A stretch of 34,808 nt of DNA from Acidimicrobiia bacterium (GTDB lineage: Bacteria; Actinomycetota; Acidimicrobiia; Acidimicrobiales; MedAcidi-G1), in contig DQOF01000170.1 in the NCBI GenBank assembly GCA_015658775.1, positions 1 to 34,808 of the forward strand, written 5' to 3'. The notes under the pieces were generated by a model. That model saw only the letters and a list, made by a program, of their open reading frames with translations, made no database searches and was not told where the DNA came from. The position numbers were made by a program, and so were the translations under genes. Below are positions 1,638-34,033 of this stretch, one piece after another (the first letter of the stretch is position 1; each line of letters opens with the position of its first letter).

Positions 1638-3653
<2,016 letters not shown>

Positions 3654-3675: not shown

Positions 3676-3705
3676 ACCCTAGCCAGTCACCGCACCCCCG
3701 TCAGC
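3676..3705 (-). promoter_or_regulatory. Possible acs promoter (weak -35 GCTGAC, 18-nt spacer, -10 TAGGGT)
   Basis: TAGGGT (3681..3676) fits the actinobacterial TAnnnT -10 pattern. The -35 is poor. Confidence 0.2.
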
Positions 3706-4738
3706 AGCCGACGGACCACTCCAGGACGCCGAACCCGCCCAACCCCCCGGTGTCCAGGAGGGCTTCGGACTCGGTCACCCTGCTACGGGCGCGTACCGCT
3801 TCGAGATCACCGAGGTGGGCCCTCTCGGACCAGGTCCTGCGTCCCTCCTCGACCAGGCCGTCGATGCCGTGGAGCCGCAGGAACTCCGCCTGGGTCGACA
3901 GGGAGGCGCCGTCGGCCAGTTGGTCGACAGCCACGTCGACGGTGATGTCCTGCATGCCGGGACTGGCCAGCGGCGACCCACCCCGCCCATGGCCCCGGTA
4001 GGTACGCAGCCATTCCTCCTGGGGCCGGTCCGCCATGCCCCCGGTGGTCGTGCAGTAGTCGACCACCAGCAGCGCTCCCCTGTCCAGGCGGGCCAGGGCG
4101 TCGTTGACCCAGTCGGCGGCAGCGGCCTGGACAGCTATCCGGGCTCCGTCCACCGGATCGACCTCCACGGGTGGTTCGAACCGCTCGGCTAGGCACTCGA
4201 CGAACGTGCCGTCCGATACGCCTACCCGTACCTCGTGCCAGGCCCCGCCCACGGCCTCCAGGAGGCCGAACGCCAAGTTGTCCAACAGCTCGTTGGCCAG
4301 GATCACACCGACCAACGGCCCGTCGGGGAGTTCGGGGACGGACCGCAGTCGTTCGCCTGAGGGTTGCGCGGAACGGAGAGTGACCGACCGCTCGACCATC
4401 ACGTACGTGCCGACTTCGAGACAGCCGGGCCCAGCCGAAAGCACCGCCCTTGCCAGCGTGCCGACCCCGGCACCGGCCTCCACCACCGTGAAGCCGGCAG
4501 GACGTCCCAGCGCCTCCCACACGCTGTCCACGTAGCGTGCCAGGACGGATCCGAACAGCGGACCCACCTCGGGGCTCGTGATGAAGTCGCCCCGACGGCC
4601 TGCCATCCCGCCCGAGGCGTAGAAGCCTGCCGAGGAGTCGTAGAGGCACGCCTCCACGAACTCGTCGAATCCGAGAGGCCCCGAGGCACCGACGAGGCCC
4701 GCCAGCCGGGCGGAGAGGTCGGCCTGCGAACCGCGGAT
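3701..4738 (-). CDS. SAM-dependent methyltransferase, MidA/NDUFAF7 family (PF02636-like)
   Basis: LGFDEFVEACLYDSSAGFYASGGMAGRRGDFITSPEVGPLFGSVLARYVDSVWEALG ... TVVEAGAGVGTLARAVL ... GVILANELLDNLAFGLLE ... GALLVVDYC: typical MidA/NDUFAF7 architecture. The start codon is not canonical near 4738; the ORF-track ATG at 4891 lies well inside nuoN. Confidence 0.88.
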   Translation of the reverse strand: MRGSQADLSARLAGLVGASGPLGFDEFVEACLYDSSAGFYASGGMAGRRGDFITSPEVGPLFGSVLARYVDSVWEALGRPAGFTVVEAGAGVGTLARAVLSAGPGCLEVGTYVMVERSVTLRSAQPSGERLRSVPELPDGPLVGVILANELLDNLAFGLLEAVGGAWHEVRVGVSDGTFVECLAERFEPPVEVDPVDGARIAVQAAAADWVNDALARLDRGALLVVDYCTTTGGMADRPQEEWLRTYRGHGRGGSPLASPGMQDITVDVAVDQLADGASLSTQAEFLRLHGIDGLVEEGRRTWSERAHLGDLEAVRARSRVTESEALLDTGGLGGFGVLEWSVGC

Positions 4739-4739
4739 G

Positions 4740-6248
4740 TCAGCCCCCGAGGGCGAGCAGGCTGACGTGGGTGAAGCGGGCCACTGTCTGGGGGACCACG
4801 CCGAACAGGAGGGTGACGACACCGCAGATGGCCAGGGCCGAGGCCAGCGACGGGGTGATCGGGACCGCACCGACGTCGCCGTCGGGAACATCGTCGGCCC
4901 ACATGCGGAGCAGGATCGACGCGTAGTAGTAGAGGGCCACCGCCGCGTTCACCGCAGCCACCACGGCCAGGGCGTATCCCCACGGATCGCCGGCCGTTGT
5001 CAGCACCCTGAACACCTCGAACTTGGCGAACCACCCGCCCAGGGGCGGAATGCCGGCCAGCGACCCCATGAACACCGTCATGGCCACGGTCAGGGCCGGG
5101 GCGTACCTGAAGGCGCCGGCGAACGACGAGATCTCGGCCGAACCGGTCTTGCGGGCCAACGAGATGATCACGGCGAAGGCCCCGAGGTTCATCGCCGCGT
5201 AGATGACGAGGTAGGTGACTGTGGCCGACAGGGCCTGGTCGCCCACCGCCGTGCTGTGGCCGGCGACGGCCAGCGGGGCGATCATGAACCCGGTCTGGGC
5301 CACACCCGAGTAGGCCATGAGCCGGACGATGTTCGTCTGCCGCAGCGCTATCAGGTTGCCCACGGTCATCGAGAGGGCGGCCAGTATCCAGACGAGTGGT
5401 TCCCATACCTCGGGACGGCCGTAGAAGCCGACGAACACCAGTGCCAGCAGGGCCACGAAGCCCGCTGCCTTGGAGGCCACCGAGAGGAAGGCCGTGACCG
5501 GGGTGGGTGCACCTTCGTAGACGTCGGGAGCCCAGGTGTGGAAGGGGACCGCGGAGACCTTGAACCCGAACCCTGCGACCACGAAGACGATGCCCAGGGT
5601 GACGACCGATACCGAAGCACCTCCGGCAACCACCGCTGTGTTGATGTCGGACAGCAGGGTGGACCCGGCGATGCCGAACAGGAGCGACATGCCATAGAGC
5701 ATCACGGCGGAGGCGAACACCCCCATCAGGTAGTACTTCAGCCCCGCCTCGTTGGACCTGAGGTCGCTCTTGCGCCAGGCGACCATCAGGTAGGCGGGGA
5801 TCGACAACAGTTCGAGTGCGACGAACAGCGAGATGAGGTCGCGTGACGACGCCATCATCACCATTCCCATCACCGCAGCCAGCAGCAGGCCGTAGTACTC
5901 GTTCTCCCAGTAGTCGCCCTCGGCCACGTAGTTGGTCGACAGCAGGATCACCACGTAGCCGGCCAGGACGAAGACCACCTTCATCACCAGTGCGAACTCG
6001 TCGACCACGTAGGCGCCACCGAAGAGCACCCTGTCGGTGCCGTCCAGGGCGAGGGTCAGCAGCGGAACGGCGGTGGCCAACAGCCCCAGGCCGGCCACCA
6101 CCGCCGTGTAGGGGCGGGCCTTCTCGAGGAACACGATGTCGAGCAGTGTCACGAGGCTGCCGACCGAGAGCAGCACCAGTTCAGGCGCGAAGGCATGCCA
6201 GTCGATGGCCGGTCGCTCGAAGGCGAGGACGAGGAGGTCGACACCCAC
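4740..6248 (-). CDS. nuoN: NADH-quinone oxidoreductase subunit N, 11-subunit operon copy
   Basis: Antiporter-like subunit: LISLFVALELLSIPAYLMVAWRK, GFGFKVSAVPFHTWAPDVYEGAPTPVTAFLSVASKAAGF. Confidence 0.95.
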   Translation of the reverse strand: MGVDLLVLAFERPAIDWHAFAPELVLLSVGSLVTLLDIVFLEKARPYTAVVAGLGLLATAVPLLTLALDGTDRVLFGGAYVVDEFALVMKVVFVLAGYVVILLSTNYVAEGDYWENEYYGLLLAAVMGMVMMASSRDLISLFVALELLSIPAYLMVAWRKSDLRSNEAGLKYYLMGVFASAVMLYGMSLLFGIAGSTLLSDINTAVVAGGASVSVVTLGIVFVVAGFGFKVSAVPFHTWAPDVYEGAPTPVTAFLSVASKAAGFVALLALVFVGFYGRPEVWEPLVWILAALSMTVGNLIALRQTNIVRLMAYSGVAQTGFMIAPLAVAGHSTAVGDQALSATVTYLVIYAAMNLGAFAVIISLARKTGSAEISSFAGAFRYAPALTVAMTVFMGSLAGIPPLGGWFAKFEVFRVLTTAGDPWGYALAVVAAVNAAVALYYYASILLRMWADDVPDGDVGAVPITPSLASALAICGVVTLLFGVVPQTVARFTHVSLLALGG

Positions 6249-6251
6249 CTG

Positions 6252-7883
6252 CTAGCCCCCGACCGCCGCGTGCTCGTCGCCACCGCCGATGTCGTAGACG
6301 TCGGCACAGCCCAGTGCCTCGATCTCGGCAGCGGACAGCTCTACGACGTTCACCTTCAGACAGGTGTTGAGCGATGCGTCGACCGCTCCGTCGGTGACCC
6401 TAAACACCAGGTTCGGGTAGATGCCGATCGCCACGATGAAGGCCAGGATCGGCGCCCACGCGAGCCACTCGTGCCTGGTGACGTCGACGATGTCGGGGTT
6501 CTCGGCGAACTCGTCAGGGGGTGAGCCGAAGGCCACCCTCTGCAGCAGCCACAGCAGGTAGCCGGCGGCCAGCACGGTGCCCAGGGCCGCGATCACCATG
6601 AAGGTACGGAAGGTCTCGACCGGCAGGCCGTTGGCCGGGCTGTAGGCCGACAGGATCGCGGGGAACTCTCCCCAGAACCCGGCCAGGCCGGGCAGGCCCA
6701 GCGATGCCATGGCACAGATCCCGAATATCCAGCCCATCCGCGGCGCCTGGACGAGCAGGCCGCCCAGCCGGGAAATCTCCAGCGTGTGGTAGCGCTCCTT
6801 AATCGAGCCGGCGAGGAAGAACAGCATCCCGGTGATCAGGCCGTGGGCGACCATGCCCATGATCGCGGCGTTGATCCCGAAATCGGTGAGGGTTGCGATG
6901 GCGAGCATCACGAAGCCCATGTGGGCCACGGACGAGAAGGCGATGAGCCTCTTCATGTCCGTCTGGGCGAGGCACCCGAGGGCGCCGTAGATGATGCCGA
7001 CCACCGCCAGCAGCCCTATCCAGGGAGCCCACTCGACCGCTGCCTCCGGCAGGATCGGTATGGCTACGCGGATGAAGCCGTAGGTGCCCAACTTGAGGAG
7101 GACCGCTGCCAGGATCACCGAGCCGACCGTCGGCGCCTCGGTGTGGGCGTCGGGCAGCCAGGTGTGGAACGGGAACATCGGAACCTTGATGCCGAAGCCC
7201 AGGAACATGCCACCGAAGATCCAGAGTTGCGCCGTGCGCGACACCCCGTGGCTGAGCACGTTGTCGGCGATCTCAGCGAATACGAACGACTCGGCACCGG
7301 TCAGGAAGAACAGGGCCAGGAAGCTGACGAGCATGAGGGCGGAGCCGAAGAGGGTGAACAGGAAGAACTTGAGCGAGGCGTAGCGCCGGTTCGGCCCGCC
7401 CCACACGGCGATCATGAAGAACATGGGCAGCAGCACGATCTCGAAGAAGACGAAGAACAGCACCATGTCCTGGGCGACGAACGTGCCGATCATCCCCGTC
7501 TCCAGGATCAGGATCAGGATCAGGAACGCCTTGGGGTTGCGCGGCTCGGGGAAGTGGTCCCAGCTGTAGATGATGCACAGCGGGACGATGAGCATCGTGA
7601 GCAGGATCAGCGGCAACGACATACCGTCGATGCCCACCATGTACCGGCTCCTGATGACGTCGATCCACATCTCGTCGACCACGTACTGCAGTCGGCCCGT
7701 GGCATCCAGGTCGAACCAGAAGAGCAGCAGAAGGCCCACGAACGCCACCCACAGCGAGGTGACGAGCGCGACCATCCTGTGCTGGTCCTCGCGTTCCCTT
7801 GGAATCAGGAGCATGATCGCCACACCCACCAGGGGCGAGAAGGTGGCGAGGGTGATACCCCATCCGTCGAGCAGGTATTCCAT
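6252..7883 (-). CDS. nuoM: NADH-quinone oxidoreductase subunit M, 11-subunit operon copy
   Basis: FFVFFEIVLLPMFFMIAVWGG, KVPMFPFHTWLPDAHTEAPTVGSVILAAVLLKLGTYGF. Confidence 0.96.
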   Translation of the reverse strand: MEYLLDGWGITLATFSPLVGVAIMLLIPREREDQHRMVALVTSLWVAFVGLLLLFWFDLDATGRLQYVVDEMWIDVIRSRYMVGIDGMSLPLILLTMLIVPLCIIYSWDHFPEPRNPKAFLILILILETGMIGTFVAQDMVLFFVFFEIVLLPMFFMIAVWGGPNRRYASLKFFLFTLFGSALMLVSFLALFFLTGAESFVFAEIADNVLSHGVSRTAQLWIFGGMFLGFGIKVPMFPFHTWLPDAHTEAPTVGSVILAAVLLKLGTYGFIRVAIPILPEAAVEWAPWIGLLAVVGIIYGALGCLAQTDMKRLIAFSSVAHMGFVMLAIATLTDFGINAAIMGMVAHGLITGMLFFLAGSIKERYHTLEISRLGGLLVQAPRMGWIFGICAMASLGLPGLAGFWGEFPAILSAYSPANGLPVETFRTFMVIAALGTVLAAGYLLWLLQRVAFGSPPDEFAENPDIVDVTRHEWLAWAPILAFIVAIGIYPNLVFRVTDGAVDASLNTCLKVNVVELSAAEIEALGCADVYDIGGGDEHAAVGG

Positions 7884-7895
7884 GTCGGCCGTCTC

Positions 7896-10166
7896 CTAGA
7901 CGATGACTATGAGTATTCCGGCGAGGACCGTCGCCGCAGCGAAGAGAATCGCTGCGTAGTCCTGGATTCTGCCGGACTGGATCTTGCGGAGTTTCCCGCC
8001 GGTGTCCAACGCGACACGGCCCGAGGCGTTGACGACACCGTCCACCACCATCTGGTCGACCTTGTCGTAGACGGCCCGACCGGCGGACACGGCCGTCTCG
8101 CCGACGAGGTCGACGCCCCGGTCGATTACGCGCTGGTCGAACCGGTAGGCGGCGGCGGCCACCGGGCCCTTCGTGCCGCCTGCCACGATCCCCGTGTAGA
8201 GATGGTCCAGGTAGTACTTGTTGACGAGGAACGTGTGCCCCATGCGGGCCAGCGCATACCTGCTGGTGGGCCCGTCGGGGAGTTCGGTCAGGCTGCGGCC
8301 CGCCGCCGCCGAGGCTGCCTCTACCCTCACGAAGTAGTACCAGCCGGCGACCGCGAAACCGGTCAGGACCACGAGGGTTGACGCGATCGCCAGCGACCAG
8401 CTCGGGCCCGCATGGGAGATGACCGGGAAGTAGCCCGCCACCGGCTCCACAACGTGCCCGAAGCGCTCCTGCATCGAGCCGGGTGCGAGCTGGAAACCCG
8501 AAGGCATGTTCAGGAGGCCGGCCCCGACGGCGAGTCCGGCCAGGATCCAGAGGGGGACCGTGATGCGCCGCCCCGACTCGTGGGGCTCGCCGTGGCCACG
8601 GAACTCGCCGAAGAACGTGAGGTACACGCAGCGGGTCATGTACGCGGCCGTGAGCGCCGCCGTCACCATGCCCATGACCAGCATGAGCGTGTAGGCGCCG
8701 TTGCCACCGGTTCCACCGAAGAGGCCCCAGCCGCCGGTCCCCACCAGGATCTCGTCCTTCGACCAGAAGCCGGCGAACGGCGGCAGCCCGGCCAGGGCGA
8801 TGCTGGCGATCACGAACGTCCTGTACGTGTGGGGCATCACCTTTCGCAGCCCGCCCATGTCGGACTTCATGTCGAAGCCGTGCACTGCGTGTGCGGCCGA
8901 ACCCGAGCCCAGGAACAGGCAGGCCTTGAAGAAGGCGTGGGTGAAGAGGTGGAACATGGCAGCGGTCCAGGCACCCACGCCGAGGGCCATGACCATGTAG
9001 CCGAGCTGCGAGATCGTCGAGTAGGCGAGGACCTTCTTGATGTCACGTTGCACGAAGGCCAGGCAGGCGCCGACCAGGGTCGTGATGCCACCGATCACCG
9101 CCATCAGGTTGATGGAGCTGCCGCCGATGCTGAGGCCCTCGAAGAACACGCCGTAGAGGCGGGCGATCATGTAAACGCCCGCCACGACCATGGTGGCGGC
9201 GTGGATGAGGGCCGAGACCGGCGTGGGTCCGGCCATGGCGTCGGGCAACCAGGTGTGGAGGAAGAACTGTCCCGACTTGGACATGACGGCCGCCATCAGG
9301 CAGCAGGCGGCCACCAGCAGGGCGGTCTGGGGCAGCATCCCGGCTGAGGCCAGGGCGTTGGTCTCGGCGATCGAGAACGAGCCGAACCGGTCGGGCAGGG
9401 CCGAACCCACGCTGAAGAACAGGATGCTCACGCCGACGATCAGGCCCATGTCGCCCACACGGTTGGTGAGGAACGCCTTCAGGGCGGCGTCGCTGTTGGG
9501 CTTCTCCTCCCACCAGTGGCCGATCAGCACGAACGAACAGACGCCGACCAGCTCCCACGAGGTCAGCAGTTGCAGGGTGTTCTCGGAGATGACGAGCATC
9601 AGCATCGACGCGCTGAACAATGACAGGAACGCGAAGAAGTGGGTGTACCGCCTGTCGTCCTGTATGTACTCGGTCGAGTACACGTGCACCAGCAGCGATA
9701 CCAGGGTGACGACTATGAGCATCATCACCGCAGGCCCGTCGACAAGGGTGCCGACGGAGAACTCCACGCCGCCGGCCTGGAACCAGGTGACCGTGTTCAC
9801 GACGGCAAGCGACTGCTCAGCGTGGCCACCACCGCTGCCATGGTCGGCGGCATCGGCGCCGGAGTGCCCCCCGTCGTCGACCACCACCACGGCCCGGTGG
9901 ATCTCGTCACCGTGATAGTTGTCACGGTGTCCGATCCAGGCGGCCCCGGTCAGGAGCGCCAGCACGAAGGCGATGCCGAGCACGGCGATGCCGAGTTCGG
10001 AGCCGCCCCTCGGCATGCGCTTGCCGAAGAAGAGGATGACCACGAACGAGAGCGCCGGCAGCAGGGGAATGAGCCAGGCGTTGCGCAGGAACCAGTTGCC
10101 GCCCTCGGTGATACCGAGCGGCAGGTCGACGGCACCGCCGGCTGCGAGCACGAGGAGGTCGGTCAC
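7896..10166 (-). CDS. nuoL: NADH-quinone oxidoreductase subunit L, 11-subunit operon copy (756 aa, extended)
   Basis: LLTSWELVGVCSFVLIGHWWE, KSGQFFLHTWLPDAMAGPTPVSALIHAATMVVAGVYMIAR; long C-terminal extension with terminal TM. Confidence 0.96.
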   Translation of the reverse strand: MTDLLVLAAGGAVDLPLGITEGGNWFLRNAWLIPLLPALSFVVILFFGKRMPRGGSELGIAVLGIAFVLALLTGAAWIGHRDNYHGDEIHRAVVVVDDGGHSGADAADHGSGGGHAEQSLAVVNTVTWFQAGGVEFSVGTLVDGPAVMMLIVVTLVSLLVHVYSTEYIQDDRRYTHFFAFLSLFSASMLMLVISENTLQLLTSWELVGVCSFVLIGHWWEEKPNSDAALKAFLTNRVGDMGLIVGVSILFFSVGSALPDRFGSFSIAETNALASAGMLPQTALLVAACCLMAAVMSKSGQFFLHTWLPDAMAGPTPVSALIHAATMVVAGVYMIARLYGVFFEGLSIGGSSINLMAVIGGITTLVGACLAFVQRDIKKVLAYSTISQLGYMVMALGVGAWTAAMFHLFTHAFFKACLFLGSGSAAHAVHGFDMKSDMGGLRKVMPHTYRTFVIASIALAGLPPFAGFWSKDEILVGTGGWGLFGGTGGNGAYTLMLVMGMVTAALTAAYMTRCVYLTFFGEFRGHGEPHESGRRITVPLWILAGLAVGAGLLNMPSGFQLAPGSMQERFGHVVEPVAGYFPVISHAGPSWSLAIASTLVVLTGFAVAGWYYFVRVEAASAAAGRSLTELPDGPTSRYALARMGHTFLVNKYYLDHLYTGIVAGGTKGPVAAAAYRFDQRVIDRGVDLVGETAVSAGRAVYDKVDQMVVDGVVNASGRVALDTGGKLRKIQSGRIQDYAAILFAAATVLAGILIVIV

Positions 10167-10173
10167 AATCGGC

Positions 10174-10473
10174 TCAACCCCTCATCAGGTCGATCCGACT
10201 GAGATCGATGTTCCTGGCGTTCCGGTAGAGGAGCAGCACCATCGCAAGGCCCACGCCCACCTCAGCGGCGGCGATGGCGATCACGAACAACGTGAACACC
10301 TCGCCCGCAAGGGAGTTCCCGAAGGCTGCGAAGGCCACGAGGTTGATGTTCACGGCGTTCAGGATCAATTCGATCGACATGAGCACCAACACGCCGTTGC
10401 GACGGGCCAGGACGCCGTAGACGCCGATCGCGAACAGGGCGGCCGACAGCAGGAGGAACTGGTTCAGGAACAC
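10174..10473 (-). CDS. nuoK: NADH-quinone oxidoreductase subunit K, 11-subunit operon copy
   Basis: [28 protein letters not shown] ... [17 protein letters not shown]. Confidence 0.96.
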
Positions 10474-10476
10474 CGG

Positions 10477-11031
10477 TCAGTCCTTCCTGGCCACTACGAC
10501 AGCACCGATGAGGGCGGCCAGGAGCAGCACCGAGACCGCTTCGAACGGCACGATGTACTGGCTGAAGATCATGTCGCTGACATCGGCGGTGAGGCTGGGT
10601 TCCGCACGGCTCAACTCGGCGCCGCCGAACGTGTCGATGAGGGCGCCGCCGGTGACGCACAGAACCAGCGCGCCGACCAGTCCGGCCATGAGGCGCTGTT
10701 CCCCCTCGACGCCGTCGTCGTCGCCGAACGATCCCTTGGTGAGCATGATGCCGAAGAGGAACAGGACGACGATCGCGCCTATGTAGACCAGCACCTGGGT
10801 GACCCCGACGAACTCGGCGCCGAGAAGGATGAAGAGGCCAGCGGCTCCCGCCAGCACGATCACCAGGTAGAGGGCGGCGTGCACGACATTGCGCGTGGTC
10901 ACCATGCGCACGGCGCTCACGAGCATCGTCACCGCCACGACGGCGAAGGCGATGTTCTGGGCGACCAGCACCTCGCCACCGTCGAGGCGATCGAACTCGG
11001 CCAGCGCTGCGAGCAGGAAGGGTCTGCTCAC
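10477..11031 (-). CDS. nuoJ: NADH-quinone oxidoreductase subunit J, 11-subunit operon copy
   Basis: [54 protein letters not shown] start at 11031 overlaps the nuoI stop (GTGA). Confidence 0.94.
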
Positions 11032-11537
11032 CGGGGTACCTTCGGCTTCTTGGCCTCGCTGCCCGACTCGTAGTCCTGGAAGTCCGGGACGGTCTCCATC
11101 CACCTGCCGAGCTGCGACTTGTCGTGCAGGAGGTCGGCGATCCTGGGCTCGGAGTACTCGTATTCAGGAGTCCAGAACAGCGCGTCGAAGGGGCAGACGT
11201 CGACGCAGATCCCGCAGTACATGCACAGGGCGTAGTCGATGTCGAACCGGTCCAGGGCGTTCTTCTGGCGGGGCTTGCCGCCGGGCCTCCGGGGCGGCGC
11301 CTTGTACTTGTGGCCCTCTATGTAGATGCACCAGTCGGGGCACTCCCGGGCACAGAGCATGCAGGCTGTGCAGTTCCCCTCGTGCAGGGCTATGACACCC
11401 CGGGCACGCGGCGTGGGCGCCTCCTTGACCCGCGGGTACTGGACCGTGTGGGAGCCCTTGGTGAGGGTCCGGACCATCGTCCTCAACGTGACTCCGAGGC
11501 CCTTCACCATGCCGGGCAACCTTGGGCGGGAGGGCAT
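11028..11537 (-). CDS. nuoI: NADH-quinone oxidoreductase subunit I (2x[4Fe-4S]), 11-subunit operon copy
   Basis: [12 protein letters not shown] and [12 protein letters not shown] motifs. ATG at 11537 (GTG at 11540 also possible). Confidence 0.94.
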
Positions 11538-12574
11538 CACAGGACCACCTTCAGTACACCGGTGACCACGATGTTGGCCAGCGCGAGCGGAATGAGCACC
11601 TTCCATGCCAGCTGCTGGAGCTGATCCTCGCGAAAGCGCGGATAGGTGAAGCGGAACCAGAAGATCAGGAAGGCGACCAGGATCATCTTGCCCATGAGCA
11701 CGGCCGGGCCGATGACGTTGAACAGGTTGCTGGTCGGGTCCAGGCCCGGCACGTACCAGCCTCCAAGGAACAGCGTGGCTGCTAGCGCGGCGAAGATCCC
11801 GGCTGTAGCGAACTCCCCGATGAAGAAGAGGAGGAACCGGAGGCCGCTGTACTCGGTCAGGTAGCCGGTGACGATCTCCGACTCCGCGACCGGCATGTCG
11901 AACGGCGGCTGGGTCAACTCGGCCTGCACGGCGACGATGAAGATGGCGAATCCCACGAACTGGGTGATGATGAACGGGTTGCCGATGCCGCCCCAGCCGA
12001 ATATCTCGCCGGTGGCCTGTGCCATGACGATGCCCTGCATGTTGAGGGTTCCAGCCTGGATGACGACGCCCATGACGGCGAGGACGAGCGGCAGCTCATA
12101 GGCGACCAACTGCCCTGCGGCCCTCAGCCCGCCGATCAGCGAGTATTTGCTGGCAGACGCCCAGCCGGCCATGAGGACGCCGATGACGGAGATCGACGAC
12201 ACGGCCAGCGCAAGGAAGATCCCGGTGTCGATGTCGATGAACCAGAGGTCGGGCCCGGCCGGTATGACCAGCACCAGCAGGAAGGTTGAGATCAGCACCA
12301 CGAACGGTGCCAGCTTGAACACGATGCGGTCGGCCGCCCTCGGGACGAGGTCCTCCTTCTGGAGGAACTTGCCGACCTCGGCCAGCAACTGCATCGAGCC
12401 GTACGGCCCCGCCTCCATCGGGCCGAGCCTGCTCTGCATGAAGCTCATCATCTTGAACAGGAACAGGTAGACGAGCGTTCCGGCGGGCAGCAGCACGGCG
12501 ACCAGGCCCACGAGGGCCCTGATGACGGTCTGCTGCCAGTAGGCGAGCTCTACGGCGAGAAGTGCGCTGCTCAC
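11537..12574 (-). CDS. nuoH: NADH-quinone oxidoreductase subunit H, 11-subunit operon copy (divergent)
   Basis: [44 protein letters not shown] ... [32 protein letters not shown] start at 12574 in GTGA overlap with nuoD. Confidence 0.94.
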
Positions 12575-13743
12575 CGGTCTATGTCCCCGAGGATGAAGTA
12601 GAGGCTGGCCAGGATCGACACCACGTCCGGGACGTAGACGCCCTTCAGCAGCCACGGCGTGATCGAGATGTTGTTGAACGAGGCCGACCGGATCTTCACC
12701 CTGTACGGCACCAGGTCGCCCTTGGAGATCACGTAGAAGCCCATGATGCCGAGGGGGTTCTCGGTCTCCACGTAGGCCTCGCCGGCCGGCACCTTGATGA
12801 TGCGCGGCACCTTGGCCATTATCGGACCGGACGGCATGCCGTCGAGCAGTTGGTCGACCATGATGCAGGCCTCGCGGACCTCCTGGAGGCGCACCCAGTA
12901 GCGGGAGAAGGAGTCGCCGTCGGGGTGCGTCCAGACCTTCCAGTCCAGCCGGTCGTGGACGAGGCCGACCCCACCGTCGCGACGTAGGTCCCAGTCGACG
13001 CCGCTGGCGCGGATGTTGGCACCCGAGAGCCCGTAGGAGAGCCCCACGTCGGCGGGGATTACGCCGATGCCGCGGGTGCGGGCCTGGAAGATCTCGTTGC
13101 CCGTGACCAGGTCCTCCATCTCGTCGCAGAAGGTGCGGATGCGGTCCAGGACCCCCCTGGTCTCGTCGACCCAGCCCTTGGGGATGTCGTCCTTGAGGCC
13201 GCCGATGCGGTCGAAGTTGGGGTGGAACCGGCCGCCGGTGACCGCCTCGATCTGGTTCAGCACGAACTCGCGGTCCCGGAAGGCGAAGAACACGGGCGTG
13301 ACAGCGCCCAACTGGACTCCCATGTCGCCGAGGAACAGGACGACGTTGGCGATTCGGGACAACTCGAAGAGGACAGTGCGGATCCACTGGGCCCGGGGTG
13401 GCGCCTCGACCTCCATGAGTCGTTCGGCGGCCAGGATGAACGGGACCTCGTTGGCGAAGCTGCCGAGCCAGTCGATGCGGTTCACGAGCGTGGTGATCTG
13501 TGGGTAGGTGCGGACCTCGGCGAGCTTCTCGTAGCCCCGGTGCATGTAGCCCATGACGGGCTCGGCCGCCGTCACACGCTCGCCGTCCAACTTCACGATC
13601 ACCCGCAGGGTGCCGTGCGTGGCCGGGTGTTGCGGGCCCAGGTTCAGGACCATGCCGTCGGACTCGAACTCGACGTTGACCCGCGCATCGCTGGCCTGAC
13701 CCGCTATGTAGGCGAGTTTGCGGGTGTCGGGCACCGTGGTCAC
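12571..13743 (-). CDS. nuoD: NADH-quinone oxidoreductase subunit D, 11-subunit operon copy
   Basis: LNLGPQHPATHGTLRVIVKLDGE ... GYMHRGYEKLAE ... ILGDIDR. GTG start at 13743 adjoining the nuoC stop. Confidence 0.95.
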   Translation of the reverse strand: MTTVPDTRKLAYIAGQASDARVNVEFESDGMVLNLGPQHPATHGTLRVIVKLDGERVTAAEPVMGYMHRGYEKLAEVRTYPQITTLVNRIDWLGSFANEVPFILAAERLMEVEAPPRAQWIRTVLFELSRIANVVLFLGDMGVQLGAVTPVFFAFRDREFVLNQIEAVTGGRFHPNFDRIGGLKDDIPKGWVDETRGVLDRIRTFCDEMEDLVTGNEIFQARTRGIGVIPADVGLSYGLSGANIRASGVDWDLRRDGGVGLVHDRLDWKVWTHPDGDSFSRYWVRLQEVREACIMVDQLLDGMPSGPIMAKVPRIIKVPAGEAYVETENPLGIMGFYVISKGDLVPYRVKIRSASFNNISITPWLLKGVYVPDVVSILASLYFILGDIDR

Positions 13744-14444
13744 TACACGCTCCCCCCGTCGCCCTCGTCGTCGGCGTCGTCGCCCGGCATCAACTCGACG
13801 TCGACTATGCCCGGCCACGGCTTCACCCGGCGGGCGAGCAGGGGGTAGTCCTTGCGCAGCGGATTCCCCTCGAACTGGGTGGGCAGGTACAGGTGGATCA
13901 GGTTCGGGTGCCCCCGGAACGTGATGCCGAACATCTCCCATGCCTCACGTTCGTGCCAGTCGGCTCCGGGGTACGCCGGGATCCAGGAGTCGGCCCGGGG
14001 GTCGTGGGAATCAAGGTCGGCCTTGAGGGTCACCCCGATATGGGCTCTCGGGTCGTGGACCCGGGCCAGCAGCTGGAACCGGGTGCCGCCGCCGGCGACG
14101 CCCCAGGTCATCGGCTCGGGCTCGGCTGCCTCACCGTCGTCGGACAGGTCCACCTGGGCGTCCATGTCGCGACCGAACGGTGAAGGCAACCAGTCGATGG
14201 CCGAGAGGAAGTTGAAATAGGCCATGCCGCAGCGGTCGCGCAACGCCATGCCGGCATCCAGCCACGCCTCGGCGGTGACCCTGACCCACACATCGGTGCC
14301 TGGGGCGACCTCGCTGTCGACGAGGCCGTCGCCGAGCACGTCGGCAAGCGTGGCCACGAGCGACTCGCGTTCCTCGTCCGTGGCTCTCTCAGCGCTCTCG
14401 GCGGGCTCGTCCAGGGTGGTATCAGGTGACGACAATGGGATCAC
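13743..14444 (-). CDS. nuoC: NADH-quinone oxidoreductase subunit C, 11-subunit operon copy
   Basis: [45 protein letters not shown] start at 14444 gives a 23-nt overlap with nuoB; exact start uncertain. Confidence 0.92.
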
Positions 14445-14922
14445 CCGACCACTTCTCGGCCATGTCCTCTGCGGCGATGCGCTCCTGGAGGAGGACGATG
14501 CCCTCCAGCAGTGCCTCGGGCCGGGGTGGGCAGCCGGGGACGTAGACGTCGACCGGGATTATCTGGTCGACGCCCTTGGTCACCGAATAGCTGTCCCAGT
14601 AGGGCCCCCCGCAGTTGGCGCAGGACCCCATGGAGATCACGTACTTGGGTTCCGGCATCTGCTCGTAGAGCCGCCGGACGACGGGCGCCATCTTGTCGGT
14701 GACCGTGCCGGAGATGACCACGAGGTCCGCCTGGCGGGGGCTGGCCGGAAACGGGATGACACCGAGCCGCATGACGTCGTAGCGCGGCGATGCGAAGGCT
14801 GCGCCCATCTCTATGGCACAGCAGGCCAACCCCCACTGGTAGACCCAGAGTGAGTACTTGCGGCTGATGTTCAACAGCGCCGTCAGGGGCCTGGGCAACT
14901 TGCCGTTCTCGACCAGGCCCAT
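14422..14922 (-). CDS. nuoB: NADH-quinone oxidoreductase subunit B, 11-subunit operon copy
   Basis: [25 protein letters not shown] ... [41 protein letters not shown] (cluster N2 ligands). Confidence 0.97.
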
Positions 14923-14947
14923 CAGCGCCGTCCGCCGGCCGTCCCGG

Positions 14948-15313
14948 TCAGATCCATCTGAGCAGGCCCTTACGCCAGGCGTAGAAGAGCCCGAGTGCCA
15001 GGATGAAGATGAATATGGCCATCTCGACCAGGCCGAAGACGCCGTAGACCTCCAGCCGGGTGGCCCAGGGGAAGATGAACACGGCCTCCACGTCGAAGAG
15101 CACGAACATCAGTGCGAACACGTAGTACCGGATGTTGGACTGGCTCCACATGCCGCCCTGCGGGTCGACGCCGGACTCGTAGCTGATGCCCTTCTGGGCA
15201 GTGGCGCGTGACGGCCGCAGGAGGCTGCCGAGCCCCAGGAACGCCGCCACCAGGAGGACCGCCAGCCCACCGAACACGACCAGCGTGAACCATTGGCGGA
15301 GGTAATCGGACAC
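14948..15313 (-). CDS. nuoA: NADH-quinone oxidoreductase subunit A, 11-subunit operon copy
   Basis: [43 protein letters not shown] start at 15313. Confidence 0.95.
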
Positions 15314-15414: not shown

Positions 15415-16905
15415 TCAGCCTCCGACCAGCACGGGCACCGCGTCCCTGGCCAGGCTGAGCAGGGGGCCGGGCACCAGGCCGACGGCCAACACCCCTGCGG
15501 CTGCGACCAGGGACACGAACACCGGCCCGGCGGGCGCCGCCGGAAGGGCGGCGCGACCATCCCCGTCGGATCCGTCGTCCTCCAGGTAGAGCGCTACGAG
15601 GATCCGAAGGTAGACGAACGCCGCCACTGCCGCGGCCAACATGGCCACGGCCGCCAGGAGATACGACCCGTTGTCGACTGCCGAGGCCAGGACCCCCAAC
15701 TTGACCACGAAGCCCCCTGTGAAGGGAATCCCGGCCTGGCCGAGGAGGAGGACAGTGAAGGCGCCTGCCAGCAGGGGCCTGCGCCGGCCCATGCCACGGT
15801 ATGCGTCGAGGCCGTGGTTGGCGTCGCCCTCACCGCCGATGACGGTGATCACCGCGAAGCTGCCGACGGCCAGCAGCGTGTAGACGGCGAGGTATGCGAA
15901 CACCGACGAGGTGCCCCTGTCCGTGGCGGCCTGCACCCCCACCAGGATGAAGCCGGCGTGGACGATCGAGGAATAGGCGAGCATCCGCTTCACGTCGGTC
16001 TGGACCACGGCCACGATTGCCCCGCCCAGCACCGTGAGCCCCGCCATGACCTGCATGGCCGGCCGCCAGTCGGTGGCGTGGGTGCCGAAGGTGAGCACGA
16101 ACACCCTCACCAGGGCGGCGAAGCCCGCTGCCTTGACCCCGGCGGCCATCCAGGCCACGACAGGGGTGGGCGAGCCCTGGTAGACGTCGGGGGTCCAGGC
16201 GTGGAACGGGACCGCCGCCACCTTGAACCCGAGGCCCACGAGGAGGAGGCCCAGCCCAGCCAATAGCATGGCATCGTCGATGAGGACGTTGGTGGTCAAA
16301 AAGGTGCTGATCCGCACCAGGTTCGTTGACCCGGTTGCGCCGTAGACGAGGGCGATTCCGTAGAGCAGGAACGCCGAGGCGAAGGCCCCGAGCAGGAAGT
16401 ACTTCATCGCGGCCTCCTGCGATTCGATTCGTCGCAGGTGGAGGGCGGCAAGGACGTATACGGCTATGGAGAGGATCTCGAGGCCCAGGAAGAGCACTAT
16501 CAGGTCGTTGGCGGAGGCCATGACCACACCACCTGAAGCCGAGAGCAGCAGGAGCACGTAGAGCTCGACGCCGGGAAGGGCCTCCCGTGCCAGGTAGTCC
16601 CGGGCGGTCAGCGCCGTGGCGATCACCGCCACCGCCAGGACGCCCGTGACGAATATCGACGAGCCGTCGACGCCGACCGCCCCGCCCAGGAACGACTCGG
16701 CACCGTACCGGTCCACCTGCCGCCACATGGGGACGAGGGCGACCAGCACGACTGCGCCGGCCAGGACGGTCCAGGCGGGCGCCAACACGTCGGGGAGTCG
16801 CCTCACGAGCGATGCCACCGTCAGGAGTAGCAGGCCTCCCGCCGAGAAGACGAGCAGCGGAACCAGGGCCCACCAGGCCACGTAGGGGGTTGCGAGCTCC
16901 GCCAT
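15415..16905 (-). CDS. nuoN: NADH-quinone oxidoreductase subunit N, 14-subunit operon copy
   Basis: LIVLFLGLEILSIAVYVLAALHLRRIESQEAAMKYFLLGAFASAFLLYG ... GFKVAAVPFHAWTPDVYQGSPTPVVAWMAAGVKAAGF. Confidence 0.95.
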   Translation of the reverse strand: MAELATPYVAWWALVPLLVFSAGGLLLLTVASLVRRLPDVLAPAWTVLAGAVVLVALVPMWRQVDRYGAESFLGGAVGVDGSSIFVTGVLAVAVIATALTARDYLAREALPGVELYVLLLLSASGGVVMASANDLIVLFLGLEILSIAVYVLAALHLRRIESQEAAMKYFLLGAFASAFLLYGIALVYGATGSTNLVRISTFLTTNVLIDDAMLLAGLGLLLVGLGFKVAAVPFHAWTPDVYQGSPTPVVAWMAAGVKAAGFAALVRVFVLTFGTHATDWRPAMQVMAGLTVLGGAIVAVVQTDVKRMLAYSSIVHAGFILVGVQAATDRGTSSVFAYLAVYTLLAVGSFAVITVIGGEGDANHGLDAYRGMGRRRPLLAGAFTVLLLGQAGIPFTGGFVVKLGVLASAVDNGSYLLAAVAMLAAAVAAFVYLRILVALYLEDDGSDGDGRAALPAAPAGPVFVSLVAAAGVLAVGLVPGPLLSLARDAVPVLVGG

Positions 16906-18506
16906 CAGCCCTCCCCGTGGGAGTCGTGGTCGCCGTCATCGGGATCGATGTCGGCGCCCATGCGGCTGACCGGCTCGATGAAGCCGTCGACGTTGCGCTC
17001 GATGTGTTCGACGAGGGCGTCGACTGCCGGCTCCATCCGCTCGATGACCGGCTTGGGATACACGCCCATGAACACGATGAGCGCCAGGAGCGGTGCCAAC
17101 ACCAGGCCCTCACGAATCCGCAGGTCGGGCATTTCGGCGTTGTCGCCATGGGCCGGCCCGTGGAACACCCGTTGGTAGGCCCACAGCAGGTAGAGGGCGG
17201 CCAGGATCACGCCGGAGGCGGCCACCACGGCCCACCACCGGTGGGCGTTGAAGGCACCCAGCAGGATCAGGAACTCGCCTACGAACCCGTTCAGACCCGG
17301 CAGGCCGATCGACGACAGCATCACCAGTGTGAAGACGGCGGCCATGACCGGAGCCGACTTCTGGAGGCCACCCAACTCGTCGATCTGTCGGGTGTGGCGC
17401 CTCTCGTAGATCATCCCGACCAACAGGAACAGGGCGCCCGTGGACACCCCGTGGTTGACCATCTGCAGGAGGCTGCCCTCGAGGCCCTCGGTGTTGAGTG
17501 AGAACGTGCCGAGGATGATGAACCCGAGGTGGGCCACCGACGAGTAGGCGACGAGTCGCTTCAGGTCGCGCTGCATCGTCGCCACCACCGCGCCGTAGAC
17601 GATTCCGACCACGCCCAGGGTCAGGAACACCGGGGCGAAGAAGTGCGATGCCTCCGGGAACAGGTAGAGGCCGAACCGCAGGAAGCCGTATGTGCCGAGC
17701 TTCAGCAGCACGCCTGCCAGGATCACCGAACCGGCCGTGGGCGCCTCGGTGTGGGCGTCCGGCAGCCAGGTGTGCAACGGGAAGATCGGCACCTTCACGG
17801 CGAACGCCAGCGCGAACGCCAGGAAGATCCAGCGGGCGGCACCGGTGGAGAGGCTCTGAGCCTCGGCTATCGCGACCAGGTCGAAGGTGAGGGCTTCGCC
17901 CGCCGCGTCGGCGTGCATGAAGGCCAGGGCCAGTATGCCGACCAGCATGAGAGCCGAACCGGCCATCGTGTAGAGGAAGAACTTGGTCGCCGCCCGTGCG
18001 CTGTCGCCGTGTCCCCACCGACCGATGAGGAAGTACATAGGCACCAGCACGGCTTCGAAGCAGAGGAAGAACACCAACAGGTCGAGCGAGCAGAACACGC
18101 CCATTACTGCGGCCTCGAGTACCAGCATCCAGGCGTAGTACGACCGCGAATGGTGGTCCGGGTCGACGGCAAGGAGCGAGATCGGGAAAAGCAGGCCCGT
18201 CAGCACGACCAGGAACAGGGAGATCCCGTCGATGCCGAGGAGCCAGGAGATTCCCAGGTCCCGGATCCAGACCTGTTCCGTACCGAACTGGAATCCGGTG
18301 ACACCCGTGTCGAATGCCGTGAAGAGCCATACGGACATGGCGCCGGTGACCACCGAGACCGAGACGGCCACCAACTTCAGCAACTCGGGGCGGCGTCTGG
18401 GCATGACGATCACGAGCAGGGCACCGAGCAGCGGGACCAGAATCAGGGCGGGCAGCACGGGGAACGACACGGCACCGGCGGCGGCGAGGGTCACAGGGAC
18501 CGTCAC
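16905..18506 (-). CDS. nuoM: NADH-quinone oxidoreductase subunit M, 14-subunit operon copy
   Basis: FFLCFEAVLVPMYFLIGRWG, KVPIFPLHTWLPDAHTEAPTAGSVILAGVLLKLGTYGF. GTG start at 18506 in GTGA overlap with the nuoL stop; the ORF-track start at 19277 lies inside nuoL. Confidence 0.95.
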   Translation of the reverse strand: MTVPVTLAAAGAVSFPVLPALILVPLLGALLVIVMPRRRPELLKLVAVSVSVVTGAMSVWLFTAFDTGVTGFQFGTEQVWIRDLGISWLLGIDGISLFLVVLTGLLFPISLLAVDPDHHSRSYYAWMLVLEAAVMGVFCSLDLLVFFLCFEAVLVPMYFLIGRWGHGDSARAATKFFLYTMAGSALMLVGILALAFMHADAAGEALTFDLVAIAEAQSLSTGAARWIFLAFALAFAVKVPIFPLHTWLPDAHTEAPTAGSVILAGVLLKLGTYGFLRFGLYLFPEASHFFAPVFLTLGVVGIVYGAVVATMQRDLKRLVAYSSVAHLGFIILGTFSLNTEGLEGSLLQMVNHGVSTGALFLLVGMIYERRHTRQIDELGGLQKSAPVMAAVFTLVMLSSIGLPGLNGFVGEFLILLGAFNAHRWWAVVAASGVILAALYLLWAYQRVFHGPAHGDNAEMPDLRIREGLVLAPLLALIVFMGVYPKPVIERMEPAVDALVEHIERNVDGFIEPVSRMGADIDPDDGDHDSHGEG

Positions 18507-20431
18507 AGCGTCGACCTCGTGAGGAACCAGATCAGCAGGGCGACCGCCCCCACGCCGATACCGGCCGCGTAGGTGCGGACCATGCCGTTGTGGAACAGGC
18601 GCAGAACGCCGGCCGTCCTCGAGACGATGCCCGCCACCCCCCAGACGGCACCGTCCACGACGCGTTCGTCGAACCTCGTGGTGGCCTCGAAGCCCCGCCT
18701 GCCCGGACCTCCCATGAACCCGGACACGTACCGGTCGAACCTCCAGGCATCTGCCAGGAGGGGCCGTTCGATGGCCCGGTCGCTGATCCGCCGTTGCAGG
18801 TACACGACCAGCGCCAGTGCGATGCCGACGGCTCCGCCGACCACGGCAACCGCCGCCAGGACCCACTGCGTACCGGCACCCAGCCCCAGGTGGACCTCGT
18901 TGCCGAACAACGATGGCTCCAACCAGGCCTCCAGCCTCTTCGTCGAGGAGGAGAACGGCAGTTGCATGAGGCCGCCGCCGATTGCCAGCACGGCGAGCAC
19001 GACCAGCGGCAGGGTCATGGTCAGGGGCGACTCGTGGGGCCGGTGGTCGGCCCGCGCCGCCACGGTGGCAGGGTCCTCTCCGCCGGTCCGTGGTTCCGGG
19101 TACCGGTAGCGGCCGAAGAAGGTGAGTGCCACCTGGCGGGTCATGTAGAAGGCGGTCAGCACCGCCGTCACCAGGCCGACCAGCCACAGCGCAGGGCTTC
19201 GGTCCCAGGCGAACGCCAGGATCTCGTCCTTCGACCAGAACCCGGCGAATGGGGGAACCCCGGCTATCGCCAGCCAACCGATGATGAACGTGGTGGCCGT
19301 GACGGGCATGAACCGCCGCAGTCCGCCGTAGTGGCGGAGGTCCTGGTCACCGTCCATGCCGTGGATCACTGAACCGGCACCCAGGAACAACAGCGCCTTG
19401 AAGAAGGCGTGTGTGATCATGTGGAACACGGCGGCCACGTACGCCCCGGTGCCGACGGCCAGGAACATGTAGCCGAGTTGGCTGATCGTGGAGTAGGCGA
19501 GCACCTTCTTGATGTCGGTCTGGGCCAGGGCCGCGGTGGCCGCGAACAGGGCGGTTCCGACACCCACCCAGGCGATCATGTCCGGAACCCAGCCTGCGGC
19601 ATCGGCTATCAGGGGGTTGACGCGTGTCAGCAGGTAGACGCCCGAGGTCACCATCGTGGCGGCGTGGATCAGCGCGGACACCGGCGTGGGACCGGCCATG
19701 GCATCCGGCAACCACAGGTGCAGGGGGAACTGCGCCGACTTCCCGACGGCGCCGACGAAGAGCATCACGGCAATGAGCGTGGCGGTGGTCTGGGCGACGG
19801 TTCCGGCAGCTGCGGCGTCCAGCACGTCGACGTAGTCGAGCGACCCGAAGGCGAAGAAGGTGGCGAACATGGCGACCATGAACCCCCAGTCACCGATCCG
19901 GTTGGTGATGAAGGCCTTCTTGCCGGCCGAGGCGTTCGCCTCGTCGGTGAACCAGAACGAGATCAGGAGATAGGAGCAGGCGCCGACCCCCTCCCAGCCC
20001 AGGAAGGTGAGGAGGAGGCTGTCGCCCAGTACGAGCATCAACATGGCGAATGCGAACAGGTTCATGTAGGCGAAGAACCGACCGAAGTCGACGTCGCCGT
20101 GCATGTACCCGATCGCGTACATGTGGATGAGGGCACCCACACCCGTGATGAACAGGCACATCGTGAGGGCCAGGGGATCGACCAGGAAGCCGACGTCGAC
20201 CGAGAGGTCGCCGGCGGGCACCCATTCGAAGAGGGTCGTCACCGAACGCCGGTCATCGACGGCGCGGCCGGCCAGGTCCAGGTGGACGCCGACGGTCACG
20301 AGGAAGGAGCCGGTCAGGGCGCCCGTCGCCAGCCACCCGGCGCCGGGCTCACCGATGCGTCGACCGGCGACGGTCAGCACCAGGAAGCCGGCCAGCGGGA
20401 GGCCGGGAACCAACCAGATCAGGTCGAGCAC
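18503..20431 (-). CDS. nuoL: NADH-quinone oxidoreductase subunit L, 14-subunit operon copy
   Basis: FLGWEGVGACSYLLISFWFTDEANASAGKKAFITNRIGDWGF, KSAQFPLHLWLPDAMAGPTPVSALIHAATMVTSGVYLLTR. Confidence 0.96.
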   Translation of the reverse strand: MLDLIWLVPGLPLAGFLVLTVAGRRIGEPGAGWLATGALTGSFLVTVGVHLDLAGRAVDDRRSVTTLFEWVPAGDLSVDVGFLVDPLALTMCLFITGVGALIHMYAIGYMHGDVDFGRFFAYMNLFAFAMLMLVLGDSLLLTFLGWEGVGACSYLLISFWFTDEANASAGKKAFITNRIGDWGFMVAMFATFFAFGSLDYVDVLDAAAAGTVAQTTATLIAVMLFVGAVGKSAQFPLHLWLPDAMAGPTPVSALIHAATMVTSGVYLLTRVNPLIADAAGWVPDMIAWVGVGTALFAATAALAQTDIKKVLAYSTISQLGYMFLAVGTGAYVAAVFHMITHAFFKALLFLGAGSVIHGMDGDQDLRHYGGLRRFMPVTATTFIIGWLAIAGVPPFAGFWSKDEILAFAWDRSPALWLVGLVTAVLTAFYMTRQVALTFFGRYRYPEPRTGGEDPATVAARADHRPHESPLTMTLPLVVLAVLAIGGGLMQLPFSSSTKRLEAWLEPSLFGNEVHLGLGAGTQWVLAAVAVVGGAVGIALALVVYLQRRISDRAIERPLLADAWRFDRYVSGFMGGPGRRGFEATTRFDERVVDGAVWGVAGIVSRTAGVLRLFHNGMVRTYAAGIGVGAVALLIWFLTRSTL

Positions 20432-20434
20432 CCC

Positions 20435-20743
20435 CTACCCCCTCAGCACGGACAGGTCGTCGACCGTGGCACCGGAGCGGCGGCGCATGATCGCCACGAT
20501 CACGGCCAGGCCGACGACGACCTCGGCGGCCGCCACCACCAGCACGAAGAACACGGAGAGCTGCCCGCCCAGGTCGCCCAACTCGGCGCCCAGGCTGACG
20601 AACGTGAGGTTCACCGCGTTCAGCATCAGCTCTATGCACATGAACATGACGAGCGGATTGCGACGTACCAGCAGGCCCACCGCTCCCATCGAGAACAGCA
20701 CGGCACCCAGCGCCAGGTACCACCCGGTTGTCACGACCATCAC
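20435..20743 (-). CDS. nuoK: NADH-quinone oxidoreductase subunit K, 14-subunit operon copy
   Basis: LLVRRNPLVMFMCIELMLNAVNLTFVSL ... AAAEVVVGLAVIVAIMRRR. Confidence 0.96.
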   Translation of the reverse strand: MMVVTTGWYLALGAVLFSMGAVGLLVRRNPLVMFMCIELMLNAVNLTFVSLGAELGDLGGQLSVFFVLVVAAAEVVVGLAVIVAIMRRRSGATVDDLSVLRG

Positions 20744-21390
20744 GCCGGGTCCCCGGATGCTGTGTCGTCGGGCGACCGGCCCTCAGGGGACGGGTCCTGC
20801 GAAGCGGGAAGGTCGGGGGCACCCTCGTCGGCGGGGACGGCGGCGACCGCCTCGACGGGGATCGGCTGCAGCGGGCCCTTCAGGCGGCGGGCCAGGGCCA
20901 CGGCGCCCACGACGGCGACGGTGAGCAGGATCGCGGTCAACTCGACTGCGTAGACCATGTCCGTGAAGAGCGCCTCGCCGAGACGCCTGGTGTTGTCTGC
21001 GGCGTCACCCAGGGCGGCATTGGCCGCCCGAACGCCGGTGGATCCGTCCACGGCGACCAGCATCACGACCAGGGTCAGGCCCAGCAACGAGGCTCCGGTG
21101 ACAACCGCCAGCGGACGCTGTCCGGCTATCGGTTCGATGCCGAGGTCGTCGGCGCGGTCGACCCCCAGCAGCATGATCACGAAGAGGAACAGGATGACGA
21201 TGGCGCCTGCGTAGACGACCACCTGGACTGCGGCAAGGAACGTGGCGTTCAGGAGTACGAACAGCACGGCCACCCCGAACAGGGTCTGGACCAGGAAGAG
21301 GGCTGCGTGGACCGGGTTTCGTGCCAGGAGCACGCCGAGGGCTCCTGACAACACGACCACGGCGCTGACGATGAAGACGGCCGGTTCCAT
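20740..21390 (-). CDS. nuoJ: NADH-quinone oxidoreductase subunit J, 14-subunit operon copy
   Basis: RNPVHAALFLVQTLFGVAVLFVLLNATFLAAVQVVVYAGAIVILFLFVIMLLGVDR; acidic/Pro-rich C-terminal tail. Confidence 0.95.
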   Translation of the reverse strand: MEPAVFIVSAVVVLSGALGVLLARNPVHAALFLVQTLFGVAVLFVLLNATFLAAVQVVVYAGAIVILFLFVIMLLGVDRADDLGIEPIAGQRPLAVVTGASLLGLTLVVMLVAVDGSTGVRAANAALGDAADNTRRLGEALFTDMVYAVELTAILLTVAVVGAVALARRLKGPLQPIPVEAVAAVPADEGAPDLPASQDPSPEGRSPDDTASGDPA

Positions 21391-22034
21391 CAGGAACCGC
21401 CTGCGTCCGCATCGGCCTCGTGGGCATCGGCTTCGGCGCCCACCTCCGACAACTGACCCATCTCGGGTTGCCTCACGCCGTACCCCAGCTCGCCCGACCA
21501 GGCCACCTGGCCCACCCGGGAAGCGTCGCCACTCGGAGATGTCGCACGCATCCAGGCGGAGGTGGCGGCATCCTCACCTTCCCGCCAGTCCTCCCACGGC
21601 AGGTGCTGCGGCCGACCCGTCTCGGCGTCGACCAGCAGGTCGTCCTTCGTGTAGATCGCATCGGAGCGGTTGGTGAACGAGAACTCGAACAGCTTGGTCT
21701 CGGTGATCGCCTCTGTCGGACAGGCCTCGACACACAGGTCGCAGTGGATGCAGCGCAGGTAGTTGATCTCGTACACGAAGCCGAAGCGCTCACCCGGAGA
21801 AACCGGATCGTCGACCGGGTTGTCGGCACCCCTCACGTATATGCAGTCGGCAGGGCAGACGGCGGCGCACAACTCGCAGCCGATGCACTTCTCCATGCCG
21901 TCCTCGTAGCGGCTGAGCACGTGGCGACCGTGAAGCCGGTCGGGCTTCGGGCGCTTCTGCTCCGGATACGGGATCGTGACGCGCTTCTCGAACAACTTCC
22001 TGAACGTGACGACGAAGCCCCTGAGGTAGCCCAT
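21390..22034 (-). CDS. nuoI: NADH-quinone oxidoreductase subunit I, 14-subunit operon copy
   Basis: [24 protein letters not shown] ... [19 protein letters not shown] at 22034 overlaps the nuoH stop. Confidence 0.95.
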
Positions 22035-29213: not shown

Positions 29214-29683
29214 CTCACCACCGGGGCGTCCTTGAACTGCACAGGGATGCTCCCGATGTCGAAGTCCTTGCGCAGCGGATGCCCCTCCCAGTCCTCCGGC
29301 ATGAGGATCCGGGTGAGGTCGGGGTGGCCGTCGAACGTCACGCCGTAGAGGTCGAAGACCTCGCGTTCCATGGCCTCGGTCCCCGGGAAGAGGTCGAACA
29401 GGGACGGCACGGAGGGGTCGTCGGCCGGTACCTGCACCCGCAGGCGGACGCGTTCGCCGCGTTGGTGGGCGTGGAGCATCACCACCAGCTCGAACCGCTC
29501 TGCGGCAGTTCCTGTCGGCAGGTCGGTGCGACCGGGATGATCCGCGTAGTCGACGGCGGTGACGTCGACCGCTGTGCAGAACCCGTCGTCCCTCAGCGCC
29601 GTGACGGTGTCGAGCAACTGGTCGGGCGAGGGGTGCAGGACCCTCTGGCCTCGTGAGGTGGTCTCCGGGACGCCGTAGGTCAT
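29210..29683 (-). CDS. nuoC: NADH-quinone oxidoreductase subunit C, 14-subunit operon copy
   Basis: [39 protein letters not shown]. Confidence 0.95.
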
Positions 29684-30288: not shown

Positions 30289-30319
30289 CAGGCCTGCCCC
30301 TCCGAGAGCGTGGTGTGGA

Positions 30320-33077: not shown

Positions 33078-33110
33078 CGGATTCTGTGTCGTTCTCCTGG
33101 CGGGGAGGGC

Positions 33111-33980: not shown

Positions 33981-34033
33981 TGTTCAGCTCCGTGGGTTCG
34001 GCACGGCGGCCACGGCGGGTATGGGCACGGTGA

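Follow-up and report, generated by a model that had tools for sequence, protein, structure and literature searches.

A MidA-family methyltransferase gene beside the operon of the Arg-type NuoD in a genome with two complex I operons

Across the genomes analysed here, the presence and the linkage of MidA, a methyltransferase of the NDUFAF7 family, track the type of complex I subunit NuoD that carries an arginine (Arg-type) rather than a threonine (Thr-type) at the position targeted by human NDUFAF7, and the rule runs one way. The window, by which we mean the whole stretch of DNA analysed (34,808 nucleotides of an Acidimicrobiia bacterium), encodes NuoD of both types, each in its own nuo operon, together with one midA gene. 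The best explanation, to which we give a probability of about 0.8, is that the product of midA is a methyltransferase for complex I assembly, which dimethylates the arginine of the NuoD of the 11-gene operon (NuoD-11). The reaction, along with its symmetry, timing and necessity, is inferred here.

The midA gene and the two nuo operons of the window

The features on which the analysis is based are the following.
3701..4738, minus strand: midA (NDUFAF7/COG1565 family, PF02636 methyltransferase), assigned by profile, PDB match and predicted fold; start codon uncertain
4740..15313, minus strand: 11-gene nuo operon (nuoA, B, C, D, H, I, J, K, L, M, N) without nuoE, F and G, directly upstream of midA
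12571..13743, minus strand: nuoD of the 11-gene operon, motif GYMHRGYEK; GTG at 13743 is the likely start
13537..13539, minus strand: codon (CGG) of the predicted target arginine in HRGYEK of NuoD-11
14422..14922, minus strand: nuoB of the 11-gene operon (NuoB-11), with Thr at the inter-subunit switch position (codon 14704-14706)
15415..30826, minus strand: 14-gene nuo operon, for comparison; its NuoD (NuoD-14) is not the predicted target
27870..29756, minus strand: open reading frame holding nuoD of the 14-gene operon, motif GYLHTGMEK; the true start lies inside the frame
29680..30396, minus strand: open reading frame holding nuoB of the 14-gene operon (NuoB-14), with Arg at the inter-subunit switch position (codon 30022-30024)

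All nuo genes of the window are on the minus strand, and so is midA, whose strand the initial annotation had left unstated. As that annotation had described, midA directly follows nuoN (whose stop is at about 4740), giving the gene order nuoA-B-C-D-H-I-J-K-L-M-N-midA. The genes nuoE, F and G are confined to the 14-gene operon, and the 11-gene operon fits the gene set of an 11-subunit complex I. The stop codon of midA is at 3701-3703. The coordinates first given for the gene hold, but its 5' end is uncertain because position 4738 reads ATC, with no ATG, GTG or TTG there; the nearest upstream starts, GTG at 4822 and ATG at 4891, are both inside nuoN. Either midA has an overlapping or otherwise unusual start within 4738-4891, or the draft sequence contains an error there. 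Despite the uncertain 5' end the domain is complete (345 residues, AlphaFold mean pLDDT 95).

Other genes flank this region. An acetyl-CoA synthetase-like gene (acs, 1638-3653) comes after midA, as it does in five relatives. Directly upstream of the 14-gene operon, at 31887-34783, are genes that resemble those of a bc complex: they encode a Rieske protein, a c-type cytochrome and a protein like the C-terminal part of cytochrome b.

Sequence and predicted fold identify the product of midA as an enzyme of the MidA/NDUFAF7 family, which is what the initial annotation had proposed. The profile PF02636 (Methyltransf_28) matches with 107.5 bits against a curated cut-off of 23.3 (E 1e-30), and this is the sole match in the 2.0-Mb draft genome, of which the window is one contig (C172). 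A search with NCBIfam returned no match for the protein. The PDB sequence matches comprise only three distinct sequences, all of them COG1565/MidA and including Dictyostelium NDUFAF7 (5ztz). When the AlphaFold model was compared using Foldseek, it aligned over its full length, family-specific insertions included, with 4g67, 4f3n, 1zkd, 5zu0 and 5ztz (TM 0.77-0.83), whereas methyltransferases outside MidA score at most about 0.4. In the family alignment the SAM-binding GxGxG and the family-invariant NE(L)xD, DY and DxT positions are retained (EAGAGVG, ANELLD, VDY and QDIT in the window protein).

The predicted target, the HRGxE arginine, is present in the same genome, in GYMHRGYEK of NuoD-11. 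Exactly two NuoD motif matches were found genome-wide, one Arg-type and one Thr-type, and both motifs and both codons are as originally read, the Thr codon (ACG) of NuoD-14 being at 28908-28910. The accompanying claim that NuoD-11 alone keeps the target arginine stands in that it is the only Arg-type NuoD, but the Thr of NuoD-14 is not a simple loss, as the 14-gene set has its arginine on NuoB.

This exchange is part of a known pattern. Coevolution of the NuoD and NuoB residues has been described (PMC5552823). In Thermus, Nqo4 has Thr (Thr64) and Nqo6 has Arg83; in mitochondria the Arg belongs to NDUFS2 and the Thr to NDUFS7. The two arginines are placed in the same space close to cluster N2 (PMC8042128). 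In the window, the 11-gene set (Arg on NuoD, Thr on NuoB) belongs to the mitochondrial-type residue class and the 14-gene set (Thr on NuoD, Arg on NuoB) to the Thermus-type class. We counted the swap at 50 loci where both subunits are encoded, drawn from Actinobacteria, Acidobacteriota, Nitrospirota, Bacteroidota and Methanoperedens; 47 of them could be scored. The coupling holds in all 47 pairs: 30 are Arg/Thr, 17 are Thr/Arg and no pair is mixed, and thus the arginine of NuoD-14 has moved to NuoB and was not simply lost.

A second NuoB residue was also recorded. At the position of bovine PSST Arg77 (FRASPRQ), an arginine that undergoes hydroxylation, NuoB-11 has Pro (FPASPRQ, 14746-14748) and NuoB-14 has Arg (30064-30066). 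Pro occupies this position in 9 of 21 scored Thr-class NuoBs and in none of 17 Arg-class NuoBs.

Co-occurrence and linkage of MidA with Arg-type NuoD

The initial annotation had suggested comparing MidA with HRG- and HTG-type NuoD across genomes. We scored 218 genomes from the phylum of the window (>=90% complete) for NuoD motifs and for MidA. A strict NuoD pattern that required a downstream [RKS]-[LIMV]-D stretch was dropped, because it failed to detect NuoD of the HRA type and of the Streptomyces type (NRHDW) and several genomes falsely looked Thr-only as a result; a relaxed pattern was used instead. The pattern can also match large subunits of group 4 hydrogenases (GYNHRG, GYSHRG and GHLHRG types).

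In the Actinobacteria, 59 of 85 genomes with Arg-type NuoD carry MidA, against 2 of 34 genomes with Thr-type only (Fisher p 8e-11; 8e-10 if the GF[VI]HRGLEK family f30, excluded from this count, is included). The GHLHRG genomes (f50) were kept as Arg-type without MidA, which works against the association. When the genomes are collapsed to families, the proportions are 22 of 31 and 1 of 10 (p 0.001); this is the safer figure, and the other p-values are optimistic, because the sampled genomes share ancestry and are not independent. Seen from the enzyme, 59 of the 62 actinobacterial genomes with MidA have an Arg-type NuoD, two are Thr-only (G090, G197) and in one (G172) no NuoD was found.

The association extends to other phyla. 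Among the matches listed for Acidobacteriota, and excluding genomes with only hydrogenase-like types, only HRA types or only HSG, MidA is present in 44 of 56 Arg-type versus 1 of 18 Thr-only genomes (p 3e-8), and again among the matches listed it is present in 9 of 9 genomes with both NuoD types. Among 48 genomes with MidA sampled from other phyla, an Arg-type NuoD was found in 45, and there was no Thr-only genome. The association anticipated by the annotation is therefore present, but it is one-way, given the 26 of 85 actinobacterial Arg-type genomes without detectable MidA. Overall, three MidA genomes were found with Thr-type NuoD only (G090, G197 and G270), where an Arg-type NuoD may be missing or have been missed, or MidA may have another substrate.

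Linkage follows the same division. In 31 of 59 actinobacterial genomes an Arg-type NuoD is encoded no more than 10 kb from MidA, whereas a Thr-type NuoD is that close in 0 of 50. In 26 of the 59 genomes with both MidA and Arg-type NuoD, MidA was not found within 25 kb of the latter, in some of these because contigs are broken. The nuoN-midA arrangement of the window is repeated in nine relatives from its order or class and in one more distant genome (L039). Outside the phylum, midA directly precedes nuoA at eight loci of Nitrospirota (including Nitrospira) in which the NuoD of the operon reads GYLHRGVEK, and in two cyanobacteria midA adjoins ndhH (GYLHRGMEK). On the NuoD tree, the linkage label requires at least four changes on well-supported branches.

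A different arrangement occurs in Streptomyces-like genomes (G023, G163, G183, G193, G083, G061 and others) and in family f18. Here a solo Arg-type nuoD2 (HRGAEK or HRAAEK) is 0.4 to 9 kb from midA, and the second nuo set, located by nuoH, is far from nuoD2. Two f17 genomes show the same nuoD2-midA pairing, on separate contigs. With these two included, solo nuoD2 next to midA and away from the second nuo operon was seen at ten loci. At two loci (L163, L164) the distant NuoB2 is Thr type, matching the Arg-type NuoD2. Target and enzyme thus stay paired where nuoD2 has left the operon, in Streptomyces-like genomes and in two other families.

Proposed role of MidA and its alternatives

Counting residues along the human NDUFS2 sequence places Arg85 in LLHRGTEK. 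That this is the human target (in mature numbering), as the initial annotation had it, agrees with the literature (PMC3829151, PMC3750175). Human NDUFAF7 dimethylates Arg85 of NDUFS2 early in assembly (PMC3829151), and loss of the human or the Dictyostelium enzyme impairs assembly of complex I (PMC3829151, PMC8042128). In Yarrowia, mutation of the target arginine lowers the content of the complex and disturbs N2 (PMC8042128). The same symmetric dimethyl-Arg mark is found at Arg-65 of Nqo4 in Paracoccus denitrificans (PMC3750175).

Based on this published biochemistry of the family and on the genomic association, symmetric dimethylation of the NuoD-11 arginine is the likeliest function of MidA. 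The enzyme would use SAM to dimethylate the HRG-motif arginine of free NuoD-11, a residue expected to sit next to the future site of cluster N2. Methylation would occur before or while NuoD-11 joins NuoB-11 and would stabilise the NuoD-NuoB interface. The cell's 14-subunit complex would not need MidA, because its arginine is on NuoB and its NuoD, with Thr, offers no guanidinium to methylate.

The 26 actinobacterial Arg-type genomes without detectable MidA mean that MidA is not universally needed with the arginine, and we rejected the stronger statement that an Arg-type NuoD needs MidA. MidA was found neither in the neighbourhood nor in the genome for a clade of actinobacterial complete 11-gene operons with HRGFEK or HRAFEK (L004-L011, L150, L151). 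This clade nests inside MidA-bearing lineages, and MidA was therefore probably lost in it.

These MidA-less operons, together with the unmodified Arg-249 of E. coli NuoCD (PMC3750175), count in favour of the strongest alternative: that MidA is a holdover, the 11-subunit complex tolerating an unmethylated arginine and methylation serving as optional fine-tuning of cluster N2 with no requirement in assembly. We consider this unlikely, at perhaps one chance in four, as 59 of the 62 MidA genomes retain the enzyme alongside its presumed target and the human and Dictyostelium defects are defects of assembly.

Less probable still is that the main substrate of MidA is another protein or a nucleic acid and that its place beside nuo genes reflects operon hitch-hiking. 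The three MidA genomes with Thr-type NuoD only would fit such a substrate, as would the many genomes in which midA is unlinked to nuo and the report that a Wolbachia MidA expressed in E. coli methylates DNA (PMC12455994). Hitch-hiking does not readily account for linkage that takes different arrangements in three phyla and is always to an Arg-type NuoD, for the pairing of midA with a solo nuoD2 and not with the rest of the operon, or for the near absence of MidA from Thr-only genomes. It is very doubtful that the methyl mark sorts subunits by keeping NuoD-11 off NuoB-14 in cells with two complexes: both classes, with complementary interfaces, do occur in the one window, and 48 of the 59 actinobacterial genomes with MidA and Arg-type NuoD also carry a Thr-type NuoD, but MidA is common where NuoD is Arg-type only (11 genomes in Actinobacteria, nearly all of those sampled in other phyla), so sorting cannot be its general role.

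The residues around the target were also compared. Nearly all of the MidA-less actinobacterial 11-gene operons (L004-L011, L150-L152) have Phe two residues past the target arginine. This Phe is a possible mark of independence from MidA, as a trend with exceptions. It was rejected as a strict mark, since G040, G268, G337 and G307 have HRGFEK together with MidA, and HRAFEK fails likewise in Bacteroidota, which have both HRAFEK and MidA.

Returning to MidA as an assembly methyltransferase for NuoD-11, we lean, if only slightly, towards a more general reading. Complex I would have two interchangeable arginine classes: in one the arginine is on NuoB and needs no modification, and in the other it is on NuoD, where in most lineages a dedicated MidA dimethylates it. 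The presence of MidA across bacteria and archaea would be predictable from the class, 11-gene lineages with HRG-Phe or HRA-Phe would have escaped the need for it, and cells with both classes, such as this one, would operate two forms of complex I, one of them methylated. Bacteria that have both classes and a methyltransferase tied to one of them could serve as an internal control on why mitochondrial complex I dimethylates an arginine beside N2. The genomic rule could also account for the lack of dimethyl-Arg in the complex I of Thermus and of many actinobacteria, and it names culturable models among Streptomyces-like actinobacteria, Nitrospira and cyanobacteria.

Relation to known systems

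The enzyme family, the modified site, the mark in a bacterium and the NuoD/NuoB swap are already known. The genomic rule that MidA goes with Arg-type NuoD, and the nuoD2-midA pairing, appear to be new. Our literature search found nothing that ties the presence or linkage of MidA to the NuoD/NuoB arginine class and no description of the nuoD2-midA pairing; the key paper on bacterial origin, Shahul Hameed 2018 (cited in PMC9006661), may overlap.

The Streptomyces nuo2 cluster resembles the 11-gene operon in being a second complex I without nuoE, F and G in an actinobacterium, and the separate location of nuoD2 was already noted there, in passages that do not mention midA (PMC3765725). In the window nuoD is in the operon with midA at its end, whereas in Streptomyces-like genomes nuoD2 adjoins midA at a site away from the cluster.

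The window protein belongs to the same family as human and Dictyostelium NDUFAF7/MidA by Pfam, PDB matches and full-length fold, and its predicted target lies in the same HRGxEK motif. Unlike them, it is encoded in a nuo operon beside its presumed target, in a genome whose second complex I belongs to the swapped class and lacks this target. Its identity to the solved MidA structures is about 22-30%, and its activity is a prediction.

Nqo4 of Paracoccus denitrificans is likewise part of a bacterial complex I with this arginine, modified in Paracoccus and predicted to be so in the window (PMC3750175). In Paracoccus the mark itself was measured and no enzyme for it was demonstrated, whereas the window co-encodes enzyme and target and the mark is predicted; the window also concerns an 11-subunit complex from another phylum.

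Finally, the two residue classes that distinguish Thermus from mitochondria (PMC5552823, PMC8042128) are the same two found here, one per operon. Those studies compared different organisms, whereas the window brings both classes together in one genome, with MidA beside only one of them.
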